Origin: Oceanicola sp. 502str15
GTDB taxonomy: Bacteria; Pseudomonadota; Alphaproteobacteria; Rhodobacterales; Rhodobacteraceae
NCBI RefSeq assembly: GCF_024105635.1
Contig: NZ_WYDQ01000001.1
Span: forward strand, 1,178,001-1,242,000
Length of the DNA: 64,000 nucleotides
Direction: 5' to 3'
The translations under genes and the position numbers were made by a program. Within the stretch, counting starts at the first letter, position 1; each line of letters begins with the position of its first letter. The notes below the pieces were generated by a model. That model searched no databases. It was not told the origin of the DNA and saw nothing but the letters and a program-made list of their open reading frames with translations. Below, one piece after another: positions 3,685 through 31,952 of this stretch.

Positions 3685-3754
3685 GATCTTCGAACAATCG
3701 GATGGGCAGCCGCATGGCCTGCGGGCCGCGCCGGACGGGCGCAGCCTGCCGGGG

Positions 3755-5356
3755 TCAGCGGCGCTTGCGGATGAAATCCACCAGCATCCGGGTGCTGTCG
3801 TCCTTGTCGGCGCCATCGGCTTCGCCGGCGACCACGGGTTGCAGGGCGACGGCGAGTTCCTTGCCGAGTTCCACCCCCCATTGATCGAAGCTGTTGATGC
3901 CGAGGATCACCCCTTCGACGAAGACGCGGTGCTCGTAGAGCGCGATCACCATGCCGAGGATCTCCGGGGTCAGCTCGGGGTAGAGCAGCATGGTGGAGGG
4001 GCGCGAGCCGGGGAAGACGCGGTGGGCGGCCTGGCGCTCGAGTTCGGCACCCTCGAAGCCCTTGGCGGCCATCAGGGCGGTCGCTTCCTTCATCGAGCGG
4101 CCGTTCATCAGCGCCTCGGCCTGGGCGAGGCAGTTGGCGACGAGCAGCTCGTGCTGGTGGGCCAACTCGCTTTCATGGCCGCGGGCGGCGACCATGAACT
4201 CGCAGGGCACAACCCCGGTGCCCTGATGGATGAGCTGGTAGAAGGCGTGCTGGCCATTGGTGCCGGGCTCGCCCCAGACCACCGGGCCGGAGGGCACCTT
4301 GAGCCTGTCGCCCGACATCCGCACCCGCTTGCCGTTGCTCTCCATCTCGAGCTGCTGGAGGTAGGCCGGGAGCCGGGCCAGCCGCTGGTCGTAGGGCAGC
4401 ACGGCGCGGGTGGGGTAGCCGCAGACCTGGTGATGCCAGATGCCGACGAGGGCGAGCAGCACCGGCAGGTTGTCCTTGAACTCGGCGGCGCAGAAGTGCC
4501 TGTCCATCGACTGGGCCCCGCGCAGGAAGGCCTTGAAGGCGTCGGGGCCGATGGCCAGCATCAGCGACAGACCGATCGGGCCCCAGACCGAATAGCGCCC
4601 GCCGACCCAGTCTTCGAAGCCGAACACCCGCTCGGGCGGGATGCCGAAGGCGGCGGTTTTTTCCATGTTGGTCGAGAGCGCGGCGAACTGGGCCTTTGCA
4701 TCGCCCCCGCCCTCGGAGATCCAGGCCTTGGCGGTGGCGGCGTTGGTCATGGTTTCGATGGTGGTGAAGGTCTTGGAGGCGACGATCACCAGCGTTGTCT
4801 TTGGGTCGAGGCCGTGCAGGCTGTCGGTGATGTCGGCACCGTCGACGTTGGAGACGAAATGGGTGCGCGGTCCGTCGTGGTAGGGCGCGAGCGCGAGGCA
4901 GGCCATGGCGGGGCCGAGATCGGAGCCGCCGATGCCGATGTTGACGACATCGGTGATGGCGCCCCCTGCCCCCGTGAAGCTGCCCTTGCGCACCTCGTTC
5001 GAAAACGCCTCCATCCGGCCGAGCACCTCGAGCACGCCGGGCATGACATCGGCGCCGTCGACCATGACAGGGCCGCCGTCGATCCCGCGCAGGGCGGTGT
5101 GCAGCACGGCGCGGCCTTCGGTGTCGTTGATCTTTTCGCCCGCGAACATCGCATCGCGCTTGCCTGCCACCCCGGATTTTTCGGCCAGTTGCATCAGCAG
5201 CCAGAGCGCCTCGGTGTCGATCGAGGTTTTCGAGAAGTCGAACAGCATGTCACCGAAGCGGGCCGAGAAGTTGGCCGCCCGGTTGGGGGTGGCGAAGAGC
5301 CTGGAGATGGGGCGACGGGCATGTTCGGCCTGATAGGCCCTCAGCTTGTCCCACAT
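3755..5356 (-). CDS. pgi: Glucose-6-phosphate isomerase
   Basis: This 533-residue cytoplasmic enzyme interconverts glucose 6-phosphate and fructose 6-phosphate. The length and layout match the family: the sugar-isomerase core carries the GIGGSDLGP and VASKTFTT phosphate-binding stretches, and the conserved signature regions around [12 protein letters not shown] and later [13 protein letters not shown] are intact. AAGGA lies before the ATG. It is the last gene of zwf-pgl-pgi, 98 nt after the pgl stop. In an organism that burns glucose by the Entner-Doudoroff route, this placement suggests it feeds fructose 6-phosphate or recycled triose back into zwf. Very sure. Confidence 0.97.
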
Positions 5357-5454
5357 GGCTGATATCCTTTCGTCGATCCGCCTTCCGGCCTGTTTGCGCT
5401 AAATCTCTGCATGAAAGCTTAACGGCCTTCATGAACCTCAAGTCGGGCGGGCGC

Positions 5455-6125
5455 CTAGGGGGCCCAGTGCACCACGGCCTCGCCCAGCACGCACTTTACC
5501 GGGGCCTCGGCGGGCGAGAGGTGGCGGGCGCGTTCGAGGGCCGAGAGCTTGGCCTCGCCGGTGATGAGAATATGGGTCGAGAGCGCGCCCTGAAGCACCG
5601 GCGCCGAGAGGGTGATGCGCGGCTCGTCGGCGGCTTCGGCCCGCATCGGCAGCAGGATCGGGGCCTCGTCGGAGAGCGCCTCGGTCAGCCGGTCGGCGCC
5701 GGGAAAGAGCGAGGCGGTGTGCATGTCGGCGCCCATGCCGAGCAGCAGGACGGAAATGGGCAGGTGCGGGGCGATTCCCTCTGCGAGCCCCTCCATCGCG
5801 TCTTCTGGGCGATCGGCCGGGGCATAGAGCGGCACGTAGTTGGCCGCCGCCGCCGGGCCGGTGAGCAGGCGCTCGCGGATCAGGCGGGTGTTGGAGCGCG
5901 GGCTGTCTTCGGGCACCCAACGCTCGTCGTTGAGGAACACCGTCACGCGGCTCCAGTCGAGCGACTTGCGCCCTGCGAGCAGGTCGAAGACCGGCCCCGG
6001 GGTGGAGCCGCCGGGCACGCAGAAGCTGGCGGCTTCGTGGGTTTCGAGCGCCATGGTCAGTTCCGACGAGATCTGGTCGGCCAGATCCATCATCATCATC
6101 TCGGCGTCGGGATATTCGCGCAGTT

Positions 6126-6129
<4 letters not shown>
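5455..6129 (-). CDS. pgl: 6-phosphogluconolactonase
   Basis: This 224-residue enzyme hydrolyses 6-phosphogluconolactone to 6-phosphogluconate, the second step after glucose-6-phosphate dehydrogenase. The DevB/SOL-type lactonase motifs are present: SFCVPGGSTPGPVF near residue 40, FLNDERWVPEDSPRSN near 70, and LLGMGADMHTASLFPG near 130. I chose the start at 6129 because it overlaps the zwf stop as ATGA and has AAGG just before it; a start 18 nt further upstream is possible. Tight coupling to zwf fits the pathway order. Confidence 0.95.
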
Positions 6130-7583
<1,454 letters not shown>

Positions 7584-7794: not shown

Positions 7795-8460
7795 ATGTCC
7801 CCTGCCCTGCGCAGCCTTGCCCTCGCCGCCAGCCTCACCCTTTCACCGCTCGCCGCCACGGCCCAGTCGGGCGGGATGATCCAGCAATCCGACCCCGAGC
7901 ACGTGGCCCGCATCGCCGGGGTGCTGACGGGCATGGGCTTTCAGGTCTCGGACCTCGGGCAGGACGGGCCATGGGGCTTTCTGGCCGAGTACAAGGGCAG
8001 CAAGGTGCTGGTGCAGCCGGTGAGCTGCCAGCAGGGAAAGCCCTGCAACTTCCTGCGGATCGAAACCCGCTATGGCTATGACAGCGCCTTCGATGCCGCC
8101 GATGTCGAGGATTTCAACCGCCGCGCATGGTGCTGCAAGATGGTGCAGGTGGCGCCGGGCAAGGTGCATATGTCGATGACCCTGCCCTTCAACGCGCCGA
8201 TGACCGAGGCCTATCTGCGTGAAAGCCTCGCGGTGCAGTATTCGATGCACAACACCGCCTGGGACATGCTGACCGAATGGTATGAGCGCGGCCCCGCCAC
8301 GGCGGCGGTGGCCCCCTCGCAACCCGCCACGCCGCCCTCTGCCCCGCCGACGCTCGGCATCAGCCCCGCCGAGATCGAAGTGAGCGGCGCGGCCCCCTCC
8401 GAGGCCCCCAAGCTGGGCGTGGGTGTGGGCAGCTTCAGCGCGGATGTGCTGCTGGAGTGA
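7795..8460 (+). CDS. Secreted YbjN-like domain protein
   Basis: This 221-residue protein has a clear signal peptide (cleavage near TAQS, residue 24). Residues about 30-165 form one YbjN-like module: a GMGFQV strand, a Cys pair in VSCQQGKPC, then FNRRAWCCKM and a helix ending in ESLAVQYSMHNTAWDM. The last 50 residues are Pro/Ala-rich and probably disordered. The next gene's third module carries the same CCK motif and the same RESL helix, so the two genes are related by duplication. AAGGAG precedes the ATG. It probably acts in the periplasm, perhaps binding a partner; its biochemical role is unknown. Confidence 0.65.
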   Translation: MSPALRSLALAASLTLSPLAATAQSGGMIQQSDPEHVARIAGVLTGMGFQVSDLGQDGPWGFLAEYKGSKVLVQPVSCQQGKPCNFLRIETRYGYDSAFDAADVEDFNRRAWCCKMVQVAPGKVHMSMTLPFNAPMTEAYLRESLAVQYSMHNTAWDMLTEWYERGPATAAVAPSQPATPPSAPPTLGISPAEIEVSGAAPSEAPKLGVGVGSFSADVLLE

Positions 8461-23977: not shown

Positions 23978-26647
23978 TCAGCCCGGATCGCCCACGAGGA
24001 TGAAGGGGGCCCAATAGGCGGGGTGGCTCCATTTGGGTTGCTGCATGAGGGCGAGCACCGCCTGCTGCTGGGCCTTCGCGGCCGAAAGCTCGGGGTCGGC
24101 GGCGCGGCGGGCGAAGATATCGGTCATCAACGCCACCGCGCTCTGGCTCTCCACCGGCCAGTGGCTGACCAGCAGCGCCCGCGCCCCGGCGTAGAAGAAC
24201 CCCTGCGCCAGCCCCGAGAGCGCCTCGCCCCCCGGTTTGCCCCCCACGGCGGTGTTGCAGGCCGAGAGCACGACCCAATCGGCGTTGAGCTTGAGCCGGG
24301 CAATCTCTGAGACGGTCAGAAAGCCGTCTTCTCCGGTGCCGGGGGTCAGCGCGAGGGCGGGTTCGGCGAGCACCGCGCCACCCACCGCATCGCCCGCGAC
24401 AAGCCCGTGGGTGGCGAAATAGAGCACGCGGAAGCGGTCGAGCGCCCTGCCCTTCAGCGCGGCCTCGCTGGCGGCGGCCTGTTCCAGCACCGCCCCTGCG
24501 CCCGCCCGGACCGCGCCGGCGACTGCGTGCACCTCTCCGGCGGTTTCCGGCAGCGGGGCGAGGCCGGCGCGAAGCTGCGCGGCGCGGGCATTGGTGGCGG
24601 GGGCCGGAACGCCATAGTCGGGGTTGGCCACGCCGAGGAAGGGCTCGGGCGCGCGGCCCAGCTCGGCCCCGAGCGCGGTGATACGCAGCGAGAGCACCGA
24701 GGGGATCACGGTGATGGCGTGATGGCGGATCAGCCAGTCGGCCCCGGCGAGGTCGGGGTTGGGGGCCGTTGGGGCGGAGCGTAGCAGGAGCTGCGGCGGC
24801 AGGGCGGAGACCGGGCCGCGCATTTCGACGTAGATGTGGTGCACGCCCTCCAGCGCCGGGGCGATCTGGCCGAAGGTGAGCGCATAGAGCTCTGCCGCCG
24901 CCTCGGTATCGAAGGCAGGCGGGGCCTCGCCGGTGGCGGCTTTCAGCGAGGTGGCGGCGCGCACGCCGATCTGAAGCTCGATGCCGCTGCGCACCCGCTC
25001 CACCAGCGCCGCAAGCTCGGGCTGGGTGGCCGGGACTGGCGCCCAGGCGGCGGTGTCCGGGGTCACCACCACGATCCGGCTGCTGCCCCATGCCTTGGAC
25101 GAGACATCGAGGATGACCACCGCCTCGCCCGGCTTCAGCCCTTCGCGGGCCTGTGCTGCCGTGGCCGCCGCGCCTTCGGCCAGCCCGTTCAGCCAGGGGT
25201 CGCGCCCGGCCAGCTCGGCCTGGAAGGCCTCCATCCGCGCGATGGTGCGGCGCAGCTCGTCTTGCAGGATCTCGGCGCTGTCGGCGGCGCGCTCCTCGAC
25301 CGGCAGCGCGGAGTTGGCCAGCAGCGCGGCCTGTAGCTCGTTGCGCCGCCGCAGGCTGTCGGTGTAGCCGCGCGCCGCATCGCCTACGCCCTCGCGGGCG
25401 AAGTCGAGCCGTTGGGCCAGCATGCTGGTGCTGGCGGAGGCCACCGAGATGTAGCTCGACTGCACCGCCTCGAAGGCCTCTTCGGCGGCGCTGACCGCGG
25501 TCATCTTTCCGGCGGCCTCGGCGCCGGCCAGCGCGTCGAACCATGGGCCGGACATGGAGGTGCCGATCTCGGCGGACCATCGGGCCAGCTCCAGCGCCCG
25601 CTCCCATCGGTTCTGCTCCATCGCCAGGGTGGCGGCCCAGGCCAGCGGTTCGGAGAGCGCGGGATGGGTGCGGCCGAGGGTTTCCTCCATGTTGGCGAGC
25701 ACCGTATCCATCAGCCCGATGCCGATGTCGTAATACTGCGCATCCGGCCCCTCGCGGGTGAGCAGCAGGGCGATCATGGCGTTGACCTCGTTGGTCTGGC
25801 GACTCTTCATGCCATAGAGCGCCTCGGCCAGTTGCGCGCTTTCCAGCAGCACCTGCGAGGCCACGTCGAAATGGCCCTGCTGGGCGGCCAGCCGTCCGGC
25901 CTTGTAGAGCACCGCTTGCAGCGCCGGATGGCTGTTTCCGAAGGCGGCACGGGTGGCGACGACGGCCTCGGCAAAGAGCTGGAGCGCCTCGTCGTCGCGC
26001 CCCAGTTGCTCGGCCATCCGCGCCGCGTGGCCGTAGGCGTTGGCCCGGTGCCGCTCGGCCCGCAGCCCGCTGGCCCCCTCCAGCGCCTCGGCCACCGCCC
26101 TGAACTCGGCCAGCGCCGCCTCGAACTCGCCGGTGCGCTCCATCAGCCCGGCGACGTTGGAGCGGAAGAACAGCGTGGTCACATGTTCCGGGCCCCAATG
26201 GCCGCGGGCGAACTCGAAGGCTTCAAGCGCATAGGGCATTGCCTCGCCCGCGCGGTGGGCGTTGGAGAGCGCCATGGCGAGGTTCATCCGTGCGCGCTGG
26301 GCCTGCGGATGGTCGCGCCCGTGGTGGGTGACCCAGAGGTCGAGCACGCGGCGGCTGATCTCGAGCCCCTCGTCGCGGCGCCCGATGCGCTCGAGGATAT
26401 TGGCGAGCAGCGCATGGTTGAGCAGCGCGCGCTCGGAATGGAGACCATAGGCCGCCTCGAGCGCGGTCTGGAGCGCCTCGGCGGCGGGGAGCGCCTCTTC
26501 GAACCGGCCTTGGGAGTAGAGCTCGAAGATCGCGTCTTCGTCGGCATCGGCCGCGATCTGGGCCGTGGTCTTCCCGCCCTCTTGGGCCTGCGCTGGCGCG
26601 GCCAGGGCGAGGCAGAGGGCAAGGAGGATGGGGCGCAGGCAGGTCAT
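23978..26647 (-). CDS. Exported TPR-CHAT protease-like protein (third of three)
   Basis: This 889-residue protein has a signal peptide (cut near AQAQ, residue 22), a TPR-like helical region to about residue 330, a more variable middle region, and a C-terminal CHAT domain (about 590-885). CHAT domains are caspase-like Cys proteases: the catalytic His is H747 in YFATHGLVAGD and the catalytic Cys is C797 in VVLSACNTAVGG, both intact. The last residues WAPFILVGDPG are shared with its two neighbours. Its ATG overlaps the stop of the previous CHAT gene as ATGA. Export to the periplasm is my inference from the signal peptide. Confidence 0.85.
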   Translation of the reverse strand: MTCLRPILLALCLALAAPAQAQEGGKTTAQIAADADEDAIFELYSQGRFEEALPAAEALQTALEAAYGLHSERALLNHALLANILERIGRRDEGLEISRRVLDLWVTHHGRDHPQAQRARMNLAMALSNAHRAGEAMPYALEAFEFARGHWGPEHVTTLFFRSNVAGLMERTGEFEAALAEFRAVAEALEGASGLRAERHRANAYGHAARMAEQLGRDDEALQLFAEAVVATRAAFGNSHPALQAVLYKAGRLAAQQGHFDVASQVLLESAQLAEALYGMKSRQTNEVNAMIALLLTREGPDAQYYDIGIGLMDTVLANMEETLGRTHPALSEPLAWAATLAMEQNRWERALELARWSAEIGTSMSGPWFDALAGAEAAGKMTAVSAAEEAFEAVQSSYISVASASTSMLAQRLDFAREGVGDAARGYTDSLRRRNELQAALLANSALPVEERAADSAEILQDELRRTIARMEAFQAELAGRDPWLNGLAEGAAATAAQAREGLKPGEAVVILDVSSKAWGSSRIVVVTPDTAAWAPVPATQPELAALVERVRSGIELQIGVRAATSLKAATGEAPPAFDTEAAAELYALTFGQIAPALEGVHHIYVEMRGPVSALPPQLLLRSAPTAPNPDLAGADWLIRHHAITVIPSVLSLRITALGAELGRAPEPFLGVANPDYGVPAPATNARAAQLRAGLAPLPETAGEVHAVAGAVRAGAGAVLEQAAASEAALKGRALDRFRVLYFATHGLVAGDAVGGAVLAEPALALTPGTGEDGFLTVSEIARLKLNADWVVLSACNTAVGGKPGGEALSGLAQGFFYAGARALLVSHWPVESQSAVALMTDIFARRAADPELSAAKAQQQAVLALMQQPKWSHPAYWAPFILVGDPG

Positions 26648-29271
26648 CTGTCGGGGTCTCCCACAAGGATGAAGGGGGCCCAGAAGGCGGGGTGGTGCCA
26701 GTCCGGGTTGGGCCCGTCGATCATGGCCAGCATGGACTGGCGCTGGGCCTCGGCGGCGGGCATCGCGGGGTTTGCGGCGCGGCGGGCGAAGATATCGGTC
26801 ATCAGGGCCACGGCGCTCTGGCTCTCGACCGGCCAGTGGCTGACCAGCAGCCCCCGCGCCCCGGCGTAGGTGAAGGCCTGCGCCAACCCTGAAAGCGCCT
26901 CGCCCCCCGCGCCGTCGCCCTGCGCGGTGTTGCAGGCCGAGAGCACGACGAGGTCGGCATCCAGCGTGAGCGCGGCGATCTCGGAGGCCTTCAGCAGGCC
27001 GTCCTCGCCGCCGCCGCCGGTGAGCGCGAGCGCGGGCTCGTCCAGCCGCTGACCGCCCACCACATCGCCTGCGACGAGGCCGTGGGTGGCGAAGTAGAGG
27101 GTCTTGTAGAGGGCGAGGTCGGCGGATTTGGCTGCTGCCTCGCTGGCGCCGGCGCCGTCGCGCAGGCCCTCGGCCCCGCCGCCGAGGGCGCGGGCCACGG
27201 AGTGGAGTTCGCCGGTGGTTTCGGGCAGCGCCAGCAGGGCCCCGGCGAAATCGGGGTTGGAGAAGCCGAGGATGGGGGCCTCACCCCCTGCCCCGCCCGT
27301 GCCGGTCCGCCCGCCGCGCAGGGCGGCCACCGAGGGAATCACCGTGATGGAGACATGGCGCACCAACCAGTCAGCCTCTTCCAGCCTTTCGGGCGCGTTG
27401 CGCGAAAGCAGATGCGGCGGCAGGCTGGCCATGGCCCCGCGCTGGAGCACGAAGAGGTGGCTCTTGTCGGCCAGCGCCGGTTCGATGGCGGCAAAGCTCA
27501 TCCGGTAGAGCCATGCGGAGGCCGGAAGGTGGAAGGGTTTGGGGCCGGCGCCTGCACCCTCCGGGGCCTTCAGCGCCGTGGCCGCGCGGACCCCGAGGCG
27601 CAGGTCGATGGAGCCGCGCAGGTCGGCCACCGCGGCGGCCAGCGCCTCGGCCTCGACATGGATCGGCACATAGATTGCCTGCTCGCGGGTAATGGCGTGG
27701 ATCACATGCGGATCGCCCGGGCGGGGCGAGTAATCCATCACCACCAGCGCCTCTCGCGGCCCCAGCAGCGCCTGCACCTCCTCGATCTCCAGCACGGCCG
27801 AGCCCAGCAGGTCGGACATGGCCGGTAGCTGCCCGGATAGGGCCTGTTCGAGCCGGGCGATCTCGGCGGTGTTCTCGCTGATCGCCCCGCGCAGCGCAGC
27901 CTCCTGAACGGGGTCACGCTGGGCGAGCGGGCGGCCCGCGATCTCGGCCAGCGCGGCGTGAAGCTGCCCCTCCCGGCGTTGCCGGTCGGTCAGGGCCCGA
28001 TACTCCCCGCCCCCCTCTCCGAGCGCCTTGCGATAGGCACTCTGCTCGAAGGCGATGCCCGCCCGGCTGGCGAGGAAGCCCTGCGCCACCCGGAACATCT
28101 CGCGCGTGGCCCGCTCGCCGGAGATGACGCCGTGGGTGAGCGCATTGTCGAGCATTCCGATCAGCAGCTTGCGGCTCGGGGCGCGGGCCTGTTCGGCGGC
28201 GAGCGCGGTTTCGAGCGCCTCCAGCGGTGCCCCGGCGTCGCGCAGCATCGGGGCGAGATCGAGCAGCGCCCGGCCGAGTTCGGGGTGGTTGGGGGGCAGG
28301 ATCTCGCGCAGCAGGGCCACCACGGCGCGCTGGTCGTCGATGGCGCTCGCAAAGAGCGCGCTGCCTGTAGGCGAGCGGCTGCGCAGGAGGGCGCGCAGGT
28401 GGAGGGTCTGGGCGTAGGTCAGGTTGCGGGTGCCGTAGGTTTCGATGGTGCGCGCCAGCGCGACCTCGATGAGATCGTGCGCTTCGAGGATGCCGCCTGC
28501 GTGGTAGAGGCGCAGCGCCTGGTCGCGCATCGTGCGCAGGGTTTCGGGGTGGATCGGGCCGAGGCGGTCCTGCGCGAGGGCGATCGCCTCGCGGCCCCGC
28601 GCCGCGGCCGCCTCCCCCTGCCCCATCTCGTCACCGAGCCGCGCCCATTGCGCCATCACCGTCGCCCGGTAGAGCGCGGCCTGTGCGGAGCCGGGCGCGC
28701 GGGCCAGCGCCTCTGCCGCGCGGCCATAGATCGCGTCGGCCTCCGCCAGCCGCCCGAGGTCCTGAAGGAAGCCGCCAAGGTTGTAGCGCCAGAGATTGAG
28801 CTGGGGGTCATCGGCGGGCAGATGGGCCTCGGCCATGGCAATGGCCTCCAGCGCCAGCGGCACCGCGCGCTCCGGCTCGCCCACTTCCGAGAGGCGCACG
28901 GCGAAGGTCATGGCCTCGGTCTGGGTGCGCCGGTGCCCGGGGCCGAGCACGGCCAGAAACCCCTCGTAGGCGCGCTGCCCCTCCTGCCGGGCCGCGCCGT
29001 AGTCGCCCACCCCGCTGAGGAGCCTTGCCCGCATCGCCCGCGCCTCCAGCGCCTGCTCCGAGCCTGCGCCCCAGCCCGCCTCGGCCGCCGGCAGCAGCCG
29101 GTCGGCCATCGCGAGGGCGGCGGGGAAGTCGCCGCGGGCCTCGGCGGCGATCATGTTGCCCCAGAGTGCATCCCATGCCGCCGGGCTTTCGACGGGTTGC
29201 GCCCCGGCGGGCGGGACCAGCGAGACAAGTGCCAGAAGGGCCGCCGTCAGAAGGACAGCCGCCGCCCTCAT
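26644..29271 (-). CDS. Exported TPR-CHAT protease-like protein (second of three)
   Basis: This 875-residue paralog has the same plan: a signal peptide (MRAAAVLLTAALLALVSLV, cut near AGAQ), a TPR-like region, a linker and a CHAT domain. Catalytic residues are H730 in YFATHGLVAGD and C780 in VVLSACNTAQGD. I chose the start at 29271 because the signal peptide begins there and ATG overlaps the upstream stop as ATGA. The frame stays open far upstream, which is only a GC-rich overlap with the first CHAT gene and not a fusion. The middle region differs clearly from its neighbours, so target binding may have diverged. Confidence 0.85.
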   Translation of the reverse strand: MRAAAVLLTAALLALVSLVPPAGAQPVESPAAWDALWGNMIAAEARGDFPAALAMADRLLPAAEAGWGAGSEQALEARAMRARLLSGVGDYGAARQEGQRAYEGFLAVLGPGHRRTQTEAMTFAVRLSEVGEPERAVPLALEAIAMAEAHLPADDPQLNLWRYNLGGFLQDLGRLAEADAIYGRAAEALARAPGSAQAALYRATVMAQWARLGDEMGQGEAAAARGREAIALAQDRLGPIHPETLRTMRDQALRLYHAGGILEAHDLIEVALARTIETYGTRNLTYAQTLHLRALLRSRSPTGSALFASAIDDQRAVVALLREILPPNHPELGRALLDLAPMLRDAGAPLEALETALAAEQARAPSRKLLIGMLDNALTHGVISGERATREMFRVAQGFLASRAGIAFEQSAYRKALGEGGGEYRALTDRQRREGQLHAALAEIAGRPLAQRDPVQEAALRGAISENTAEIARLEQALSGQLPAMSDLLGSAVLEIEEVQALLGPREALVVMDYSPRPGDPHVIHAITREQAIYVPIHVEAEALAAAVADLRGSIDLRLGVRAATALKAPEGAGAGPKPFHLPASAWLYRMSFAAIEPALADKSHLFVLQRGAMASLPPHLLSRNAPERLEEADWLVRHVSITVIPSVAALRGGRTGTGGAGGEAPILGFSNPDFAGALLALPETTGELHSVARALGGGAEGLRDGAGASEAAAKSADLALYKTLYFATHGLVAGDVVGGQRLDEPALALTGGGGEDGLLKASEIAALTLDADLVVLSACNTAQGDGAGGEALSGLAQAFTYAGARGLLVSHWPVESQSAVALMTDIFARRAANPAMPAAEAQRQSMLAMIDGPNPDWHHPAFWAPFILVGDPDR

Positions 29272-31952
29272 CTGTCGGGGTCGCCCACGAGGATGAAGGG
29301 GGCCCAGTAGGCCGGGTGATGCCACTCGGTCCGCGGCCCGTCGATCATGGCCAGCATCGCCTGACGCTGGGCCTCGGCGGCGGGCAGATCGGGGTTGGCG
29401 GCGCGGCGGGCGAAGATGTCGGTCATCAACGACACGGCGCTCTGGCTCTCCACCGGCCAGTGGCTCACCAGCAGCGCCCGCGCCCCGGCATAGAGGAAGC
29501 TCTGGGCAAGCCCTGAGAGCGCCTCGGCGTCCGGGGTCTGGCCCACGGCGGTGTTGCAGGCCGAGAGCACGACCCAATCGGGGTTCATCCGCAGCAGGGC
29601 GATCTCGGAGGCGGTCAGCAGCCCGTCCTCGCCATCGCCGGGCGTCAGCGCAAGGGCGGGTTCCTCGACCACGAGGTCCTTCACCTCGTCGCCCGAAACC
29701 AGCCCGTGGGTGGCGAAGTAGAGCACCTGATACTGCGACAGGTCCGCGCTCTTGATTGCCGCCTCGCTGGCCGCCGCCTGCTGGATCACCGCCTCCGCGC
29801 CTGCCCCCATGGAAGCCGCCACGTCGCGCACCTCGCCGAAGGTTTCCGGCAGCGGCGACAGCGCGCCGCCGCGGTTGGAGGAGACCTGCACCGGCGCGGT
29901 GCCGGAGGGGTCGAAATCGGGGTTGGCGATGCCAAGGATCGGCTGGGGGGCGTGGGGCTTGTCGCGGGTCAGCTCCATGGCCTTCATCGCGAAGACCGAG
30001 GGGATCACGGTGATCGCATGGTGGCGGATCAGCCAGTCGGCCTCTTCCAGCGAGGTGGCCGGGCGGCGCACCAGCAGGTGCGGCGGGATCGCCGCCATGC
30101 CGCCGCGCAGCTCGACATAGAGGTGGGTCTTGCCCTCGAGGTAGGGTTCGGCCACCTCGAAGGTCTGGGTATAGAGCCAATGGGCCGCGCCGAGGGCAAA
30201 GCCGCTTGTGCTGCCGCTTTCCTGCGCCTTCAGCGAAGTCGCCGCCCGCACCCCGAGCTTGAGGTCGACCGAGGCGCGCAGATCTGCAATCGCCTCGTCG
30301 AGCTGGGTCGGGTCGATCGGCATGGGGATCCAGAAGCGCTGATCGGCGGTGATGATGAAGATGAAGTCCCAGTCGTCGGGCGCCGGCCCGACATCGAGCA
30401 CCACGACCGCCTCGTCGGGGCCGAGCAGGGCCTGGGTTTCGGCAATGGTGATCTTGCCGCCAGAGACCATGGCGGAGAAGTCGGGCGCAGTGGCGTAGAG
30501 CTCGTCGGTCAGCCGCTTCTGCTCGCGCGAGGTGGCCGCCAGATCGGCCTTGAGGCGCGCCTCGTGGGTCGGGTCGCGCTCGGCGACCGGGGTGAGCATG
30601 AGCGCGGCATATTCGCTCTGCAGCTCGGACTCGGTGGCGTTTGCATCGGTGATGGCACGGTGAAGGGCGGCAGCCGGGCTGTCGCCCAGGGTCAGCCGGG
30701 TGACCATCTGGTAGAGCGCGTGGCCGGCATCCGTCTGGGTGCTGTTCTGGGCGATCCGGTAGCTCTCTTCGATCACGTCGCTCCAGCTCCAGGCCTCCTC
30801 GATCCCGGCCCGGTCGAGCGCCTGCAGCAGGGTGTTGCGGCTTGCCTGCCCCAGCTGTTCGGCCTTCAGCGCCGCGCGTACCGAGCCGTCCCAGTCGCCG
30901 GTATCCGACAGCACCGCCGAAAGGTTGAGCACCGCCTTGCCCCAGCTTTCATGCACCGCACCCGGCTGCGGGCCCTTGGGAAAGGAGGCATCGAACATGT
31001 CGGCCGCCGCCTGAAGCATCTCGAGCCCCTGGGCAAAACTCGCCACCTCGGGGCCGCCCCGCAGGAAGTAGAGCGCATGCACGCTCAACGCCCGCGCCGT
31101 GAAGGGGTTGTCGCCCTCGTAGATCGCGTCGATCTGGGGCAGCACCTCGCGGATCACCCGGTCCATCTCGTCGTATTGGTCGAGGTCCACGAGGTAATCG
31201 GCCAGCTTGAGCTTGTAGGCGATGGTCTCGGCATCGCCCTTGCCGTAATAGGTCTCGACCCGCGGCATGATGGCCTGCAACTGGGCCAGCGCCGCCGCGT
31301 CCTCGCCCCGCTCCTTCAGCAGCTCGGCGATGTTCGTGCCCATGGTGATCGAGGCGGTGTAGAGCCCGCCCGAATTCGGGTCGTTCACCTCGGCGATGTT
31401 GCGCTCGAGCCCCGCCAGCGACGCTTGGAACAGGTCGAGCGCCTCCTGCCGGTAGTTCTCGGCCCGCAACATCTCGGCCAGCTTGCCGCGCCAGATATTG
31501 GCGACAAACCCGTCGGGCCCGTGCAGCGCCTCGGCCACCGACACCGCCTCGATCGCCAGCGGCAGCGCCTCGCGGCGCTGGCCGGTCGCCGCCAGCGCCA
31601 CCGCCAGATCCATCTGCGCGATGGCATGGGAGGGGTGGTAGACGGTCGAGACCTTGCGGAAGCGCTCCCAGATGTCGCGCCGCATCTCCAGTTCGGTCGC
31701 CCTGTCGCCCTGCCGCCCGCGCATCGAGGCGATCTGCCCCTCGACCGTCAGCAGCTGGGGCGCGTTCTCGGGGTTGTCCTTGCGCAGCTCCGCCAGAAGC
31801 GCGCGCAGCACCTCCTCGGCCTCCGCCAGCCGGTTCTCCAGCGCGAGCCGATCGGCCCTCTGGTGCATCTCCTGAAGGGCCGGCGGCATGTCCTGCGCGG
31901 GCGCCGCAGCGGCCCAGAGCAGGAACCAGATCATGTGCATGACGTATCGCAT
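29268..31952 (-). CDS. Exported TPR-CHAT protease-like protein (first of three)
   Basis: This 894-residue protein is the first of the tandem set. It has a short signal peptide (MHMIWFLLWAAAAPAQ), a TPR-like region up to about residue 330 and a C-terminal CHAT domain with H749 in YFATHGLVSGD and C799 in VVLSACNTAVGQ. The C-terminal tail WAPFILVGDPDR is identical to that of the second copy. ATG codons at 31940 and 31934 are alternative starts. It is divergent from edd, with 157 nt between them, so the promoter for all three CHAT genes must lie there. In this family the TPRs sense or bind a partner and the CHAT domain cuts protein; the target here is unknown. Confidence 0.85.
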   Translation of the reverse strand: MRYVMHMIWFLLWAAAAPAQDMPPALQEMHQRADRLALENRLAEAEEVLRALLAELRKDNPENAPQLLTVEGQIASMRGRQGDRATELEMRRDIWERFRKVSTVYHPSHAIAQMDLAVALAATGQRREALPLAIEAVSVAEALHGPDGFVANIWRGKLAEMLRAENYRQEALDLFQASLAGLERNIAEVNDPNSGGLYTASITMGTNIAELLKERGEDAAALAQLQAIMPRVETYYGKGDAETIAYKLKLADYLVDLDQYDEMDRVIREVLPQIDAIYEGDNPFTARALSVHALYFLRGGPEVASFAQGLEMLQAAADMFDASFPKGPQPGAVHESWGKAVLNLSAVLSDTGDWDGSVRAALKAEQLGQASRNTLLQALDRAGIEEAWSWSDVIEESYRIAQNSTQTDAGHALYQMVTRLTLGDSPAAALHRAITDANATESELQSEYAALMLTPVAERDPTHEARLKADLAATSREQKRLTDELYATAPDFSAMVSGGKITIAETQALLGPDEAVVVLDVGPAPDDWDFIFIITADQRFWIPMPIDPTQLDEAIADLRASVDLKLGVRAATSLKAQESGSTSGFALGAAHWLYTQTFEVAEPYLEGKTHLYVELRGGMAAIPPHLLVRRPATSLEEADWLIRHHAITVIPSVFAMKAMELTRDKPHAPQPILGIANPDFDPSGTAPVQVSSNRGGALSPLPETFGEVRDVAASMGAGAEAVIQQAAASEAAIKSADLSQYQVLYFATHGLVSGDEVKDLVVEEPALALTPGDGEDGLLTASEIALLRMNPDWVVLSACNTAVGQTPDAEALSGLAQSFLYAGARALLVSHWPVESQSAVSLMTDIFARRAANPDLPAAEAQRQAMLAMIDGPRTEWHHPAYWAPFILVGDPDR

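Follow-up and report, generated by a model that had tools for sequence, protein, structure and literature searches.

A 64-kb window of the Oceanicola sp. 502str15 genome (the whole stretch of DNA analysed here; its genome is called W) carries three adjacent genes, P1, P2 and P3, whose products combine a tetratricopeptide-repeat (TPR) N-terminal half with a C-terminal CHAT domain. In a comparison with related genomes and loci (denoted by G- and L-numbers, respectively), the sensor of gene 1 was found to be replaced as a module between two congeners, G151 and G153. This exchange of a whole sensor, with retention of the signal peptide and of the cutting half, suggests that the protein is a receptor-protease with a changeable recognition specificity. 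With a confidence that falls just short of even, we read the array as a set of exported, allosterically switched receptor-proteases in which the sensor can be replaced and the catalytic end stays constant. The three genes are encoded on the minus strand, with P1 transcribed first. The relevant features of the window are as follows:

29268-31952, minus strand: P1, first gene, probably exported TPR-CHAT protease, 894 amino acids
31893-31952, minus strand: signal peptide of P1, ~20 codons, cleavage site placed by inspection
29890-31892, minus strand: exchangeable block of P1, approximately residues 21-688, with borders projected from the G151/G153 comparison
29271-29855, minus strand: constant catalytic domain of P1, approximately residues 700-894 (H749, C799)
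26644-29271, minus strand: P2, second gene, probably exported TPR-CHAT protease, 875 amino acids
23978-26647, minus strand: P3, third gene, probably exported TPR-CHAT protease, 889 amino acids
29268-29271, minus strand: ATGA stop/start overlap of P1 and P2
26644-26647, minus strand: ATGA stop/start overlap of P2 and P3
31960-31988, minus strand: weak sigma-70-like promoter match (9/12), directly upstream of P1

Over 180 kb, the DNA of G151 is colinear with that of G153 and for the most part ~95% identical to it. At the array, identity is ~94%, then falls to 50-64% per 150 nucleotides over ~2 kb within gene 1, and then returns to 90-100%. The TPR parts of the two gene-1 proteins share 40-45% amino acid identity, and their catalytic domains are 100% identical. 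The left border of the divergent block is the signal-peptide cleavage site, such that the signal peptide and the upstream DNA are nearly identical and the codons that follow differ. The right border falls at about residue 680-690, just ahead of the catalytic domain, and predicted models of both sensor classes place a low-confidence loop beside it (687-695 and 691-694). Between these borders lie the TPR superhelix, a helical linker and the first (non-catalytic) half of the caspase-like fold, and both the open frame and the predicted fold are kept in the two classes. The proportion of synonymous differences (pS) between G151 and G153 is 0.64 in the sensor and 0.69 up to residue 690, compared with 0.20 in the catalytic part of gene 1 and 0.15-0.27 in glnE, ilvD, rlmI and the longer parts of P3. 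Because of this excess in pS, we conclude that the block was replaced. Two observations make an assembly chimera unlikely: the G151 class is also present in W, and the G153 sensor has a 97% identical counterpart in a protein cluster (P0009) from a different contig. No such divergent block is present in P3 or in three other CHAT genes of this pair. In this one pair, gene 1 thus shows distinct classes of sensor joined to an unchanging effector domain, and replacement of the sensor between signal peptide and catalytic domain would change specificity while export and catalysis are kept.

A tree of P1 sensors joins W with G151 (100/100) and places G153, G152 and G150 together (100/98). When G151 and G153 are forced together in this tree, a constraint chosen after an earlier tree had been seen, the likelihood changes by -205 log-likelihood units (approximately unbiased test, p-AU 7.7e-6). 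In contrast, G151 and G153 are paired by their flanking proteins (100/100) and by the P3 sensor. The two classes, A and B, therefore cross the species pairing, with one genome examined per species. Larger sensor divergence between classes is also evident in other pairs. In the comparison of W with G152 (class A versus class B), the proportion of nonsynonymous differences (pN) is 0.39 in the P1 sensor versus 0.12 in the P3 sensor, at pS values of 0.54 and 0.49. In all five A/B species pairs besides G151/G153, the class A/B pN amounts to ~2-3 times the P3-sensor value, while pS is similar for the two. Within class A (W and G151), the two sensors behave alike, with a pN of 0.17 for P1 versus 0.19 for P3. 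The G153 sensor differs from those of G150 and G152 by pN values of 0.28 and 0.31, respectively, and these latter two differ by 0.21; on such sequence distances the G153 sensor may constitute a third class.

An earlier sequence-only reading of the window had described three tandem genes joined by ATGA overlaps, each with an intact catalytic His/Cys pair, and this description is borne out by our analysis. Both junctions in the window are ATGA. The CHAT domain (Pfam PF12770) is matched with 184, 174 and 172 bits in P1, P2 and P3, against a cut-off of 24, and TPR_12/TPR_10 matches (Pfam) occur in the N-terminal half of all three proteins alike. The alignment columns of P1 H749 and C799 hold His and Cys in 97/97 family rows, including those of P2 and P3. 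These rows comprise 95 of the 120 listed homologs plus P1 and P3, after exclusion of 17 homologs at the bottom of the ranking, six fragments and two sequences that duplicated window proteins. The catalytic Cys in these rows is residue 780 in P2 and 797 in P3, and by our reading of an alignment the His lies 50 residues upstream. P1-P3 are accordingly predicted, from sequence, to act as CHAT-family proteases.

The catalytic residue is also the sole Cys in the predicted mature chain of each of the three proteins, as the two further Cys residues of P3 (3 and 12) fall within its signal peptide, and this composition suits an oxidising compartment. By a crude home-made rule, a signal-peptide-like N-terminus was detected in P1-P3 and in 91/97 homologs versus 8/52 controls, the latter being proteins of six neighbouring-gene clusters that were assumed to be cytosolic. 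P1-P3 are thus probably exported, and the earlier generalization that TPR-CHAT proteins are usually cytoplasmic does not suit this branch. A free-start version of the scan, applied to distant CHAT genes (29/49, plus 15 at contig ends, versus 85/228 controls), proved too noisy and was not used.

The three copies share only 14-28% identity over residues 20-400, in the TPR half, versus 68-72% over residues 700-894. Divergence therefore extends over the whole TPR half and is not greatest in the middle regions, as had been claimed, although the proposal that each copy recognises a different partner is plausible. Because the catalytic domains are similar and the sensors differ from copy to copy, the array would widen the range of signals that can trigger cleavage. 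An overlapping ATGA, GTGA or TTGA is possible at 9/9 junctions in seven genomes, and translational coupling of the array genes is predicted on this basis. Sigma-70-like sites that score as well as the one upstream of P1 number two in the region versus a mean of 0.6 after shuffling.

The AlphaFold model of P1 has a predicted local distance difference test (pLDDT) score of 90.7 and consists of approximately nine TPR-like helix pairs followed by a helical linker and the caspase-like fold. A sequence search of the Protein Data Bank (PDB) with P1 alone returned TPR proteins only, and a search with the family profile yielded no CHAT or separase chain in the best 60 of 129 rows; the structure searches do not exclude other folds. 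The solved TPR-CHAT protease structures among the matches belong to the type III-E Craspase, whose protease is switched on by the binding of non-self RNA. The best structural match is its Csx29 (TPR-CHAT) subunit (PDB 7y9x, 8eex), which shares with P1-type proteins the order of TPR, linker and CHAT fold as well as the His-Cys dyad. Csx29 is triggered by RNA and acts on gRAMP/Cas7-11, whereas the array proteins are probably exported, occur in arrays and have had one sensor replaced. The genes next to the array encode IlvD, GlnE, a DUF6778 lipoprotein and an RlmI-like methyltransferase, and not the gRAMP/Cas7-11 and Csx30 that adjoin Craspase. Pfam found no Cas domain among ten scanned neighbouring frames, the rest of the genome not having been searched for cas genes. 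Separase (peptidase C50) likewise has a caspase-like protease domain preceded by helical repeats, but it is eukaryotic, inhibited by securin and mostly larger, and its identity to the array proteins is low (10-17%).

Fungal heterokaryon-incompatibility receptors and bacterial sensors diversified by diversity-generating retroelements (DGRs) resemble the array proteins in placing a highly variable repeat or ligand-binding sensor on an effector (PMC10907252). That paper names TPR for the fungal receptors and CHAT for one DGR target, and it likens variable bacterial sensors to the fungal receptors for proteins other than those studied here. DGR sensors vary by reverse transcription, whereas gene 1 varies by replacement of the whole sensor. 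Unlike the fungal receptors, P1-P3 have no NACHT/STAND domain reported by Pfam. Likewise, a CHAT-gasdermin system is not indicated, as no gasdermin was detected by Pfam in the ten neighbouring frames and DUF6778. Judging by titles and the beginnings of abstracts, no literature on such exported TPR-CHAT arrays was recognised. A CHAT-gene mutation reported in a phage-resistant cyanobacterial strain is tied there to nitrogen fixation (PMC10811720).

We hypothesize that the array proteins, which are built like Csx29 and separase, would use an N-terminal superhelix resembling the kinesin light chain (KLC) TPR to bind a putative ligand in the cell envelope. Binding might open the C-terminal caspase-like active site, and the opened protease could then cleave a putative envelope substrate, possibly one shared by the copies. 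The ligand would be non-self or variable, such as a molecule of a phage, competitor or predator, or a variable self component. The array could thus be a variant of the TPR-CHAT kind that is probably exported and has replaceable sensors, with a possible role in non-self recognition. If this is true, caspase-like receptor-proteases are placed in the bacterial envelope, in coupled arrays, and their sensors are changed by module replacement. The two natural alleles, which have nearly the same signal peptide, the same catalytic domain and different sensors, offer a clean handle on what is recognised.

The array lies between the divergent ilvD gene, upstream, and the genes for the DUF6778 lipoprotein and the RlmI-like methyltransferase, downstream. 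We recognised this ilvD-adjacent slot in 16 genomes, counting W. It holds three copies in W and in Vannielia litorea EBW16 (G150), where copy 2 is split by a contig end, two in G151, G152, G153 and G121, and one in ten others. Homologs confined to single genes would have refuted the sequence-only reading, but tandems recur, with an overlap possible at every junction noted above. A tandem as a general feature of the family was rejected, since 10/16 slot genomes hold a single copy. Within the genus, 6/7 genomes match, the remaining one (G154) being 87% complete. P3 is present in 6/6 genus members with the locus and is the sole copy in G149; P2 is present in two (W and G150) and absent from 4/6. 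In trees of both the sensor and the catalytic domain, from which two rows were dropped (L139 and the N-terminal piece of G150 copy 2 left by a contig end), the P1, P2 and P3 sequences of the congeners each cluster separately. The copies are thus old paralogs that have been gained and lost, and recent duplication or gene conversion among them within a genome is rejected on the basis of these groups.

More widely, the protease family matches 14/149 family genomes at E<=1e-30 (the best six or fewer candidates per genome scored), and only three of these 14 (G000, G121 and G034) have a match that starts at or before residue 42, within the N-terminal part. Matches at E<=1e-100 were found in 7/394 genomes (the best two or fewer candidates per genome scored). 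In a Tabrizicola-like branch, the sensors of proteins residing in the same slot are 17-44% identical in 20/21 pairs and 82% identical in one, while most IlvD and RlmI pairs are 81-91% identical (67-75% for UBA1943 IlvD). These slot residents may be different paralogs rather than alleles.

A serious rival to the receptor interpretation, although in our judgement a rather improbable one, is that the sensor replacement reflects chance homeologous recombination without adaptive meaning and that rapid TPR divergence reflects relaxed constraint. Several observations weigh against the receptor interpretation, and a number of them favour this rival. Gene 1 is not the only place with divergent sequence: a housekeeping gene of the YjeF type (NAD(P)HX epimerase/dehydratase; L150:10088-11749, minus strand) has a ~1.4-kb divergent block between G151 and G153, with 55-74% DNA identity within a ~95% background. 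In a 180-kb control, 3/592 windows fell below 80%, all in one 1961-codon open frame (G151 C1, ~1376400-1377400) that has many shifted self-like matches and is perhaps a repetitive surface protein. We dropped this count as proof of rarity because blastn, run in the same way, is interrupted by the gene-1 block and gives no aligned piece between positions 8077 and 9710 of L134. In the control, five stretches totalling 2039 bases of G151 went unscored, and two of these (758/1212 and 963/1240 nucleotides) align at only 51-53%. Opposite the 758-nucleotide stretch of G151, G153 has a 379-codon frame (G153 C1, ~1584500-1585700) that G151 lacks and that, judging from its start, might encode a sulfotransferase-type protein; the second stretch has no coding-like frame that we could see. 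The flank tree places W basally, with weak support (86/84), and a single transfer into G151 then explains all classes; only the P3 tree, in which W joins G152, would need more than one transfer. Class ages are rough because between-species pS is near saturation (up to 0.64). Furthermore, the clear replacement comes from one species pair, signal peptides were called by our own rule and not by SignalP, and no PADLOC defence model fits well, the best being BovA (E 2e-4) for P1, with none for P2 or P3. Chance recombination fits less readily with boundaries at the signal-peptide cleavage site and near a domain edge, with the retained open frame and fold, and with the elevated class A/B pN in the five other pairs. 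None of the divergent stretches seen in the 180 kb is an internal replacement within a gene kept on both sides, although this was not tested systematically.

The array might instead serve envelope housekeeping, an explanation we consider unlikely but credible, in which regulated periplasmic proteases act in quality control or signalling, the TPRs track endogenous partners, and the classes differ through co-evolution with variable envelope proteins and not through conflict. The position of the slot next to housekeeping genes, stable across 16 genomes, the ordinary within-class evolution of the P1 and P3 sensors (pN 0.17 and 0.19), and the lack of phage or defence domains in the ten scanned neighbouring frames are all consistent with this. 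Patchy presence and variable copy number would be unusual for such a function, as would the low sensor identity in the Tabrizicola-like slots, with the reservation that these may hold paralogs. At the other extreme, and doubtful in our view, the ilvD slot could be an envelope non-self recognition locus, a periplasmic counterpart of the fungal het genes, in which lineages exchange the interchangeable TPR sensors of separase-like proteases at the signal-peptide and catalytic borders and copies are gained or lost to change the repertoire of foreign molecules. A search for phage carriage gave 41 pattern matches in viral contigs, with none confirmed as a relative. The receptor interpretation retains part of what the sequence-only reading had proposed, namely a translationally coupled array of TPR-CHAT proteases that are probably exported, but not the cascade in which three copies made in fixed ratio activate one another. 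Stop/start overlaps at 9/9 junctions would accommodate such a cascade, yet it is very unlikely because copy number varies from one to three at the same site and P2 is often absent (with P3 alone in G149); moreover, the catalytic pair is lost in 0/97 aligned rows. The suggestion that the DUF6778 lipoprotein is a cognate substrate or anchor has almost no probability in our estimation. Its gene is the next one, 141 base pairs downstream in W, and is next in line in several relatives, but DUF6778 occurs in 87/149 family genomes (85 above the family cut-off) versus 14/149 for the protease, was not hit at three Thalassovita-type protease loci (L032-L034), and is 98% identical between G151 and G153 despite their differing sensors. 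No partner gene that varies with sensor class was found, whole genomes not having been compared. A two-partner-secretion or haemagglutinin partner was also rejected, as the ten neighbouring frames, including IlvD, GlnE, an M48 peptidase and the RlmI-like methyltransferase, contain no such domain.

Relatives of the array proteins occur at other sites. In Ahrensia and two Oricola genomes, a TPR-CHAT gene lies beside the gene for formate-tetrahydrofolate (THF) ligase, in a conserved run (L041:2212-11366) of AAA ATPase, DUF6638, DUF2333, TPR-CHAT and formate-THF ligase, for which Pfam was applied to the Ahrensia genes only. The genome of W carries a fourth CHAT gene among purine genes (L029:9555-12590, minus strand; C1 ~1323563), in the same-orientation order purC, a 75-amino-acid open reading frame that looks to us like PurS, a 184-amino-acid open reading frame, CHAT and purQ. 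The open frame of this fourth gene is probably over-long, and an internal start would give an N-terminus that by eye resembles a signal peptide. At L157:3688-6809 (compare L152:6805-9914), between the genes for homoserine dehydrogenase and glpX, a short CHAT gene of ~550 amino acids in which no TPR was found (3688-5346) is followed by a stop/start-overlapping TPR gene (5343-6809). Here, unlike in the array, separate genes may encode the protease and the sensor. In contrast to gene 1, this pair and the other CHAT genes of the genus have no divergent block between G151 and G153. A CHAT gene followed by an overlapping gene is also seen beyond L157 within the same genus, at other sites (L152 and L148).
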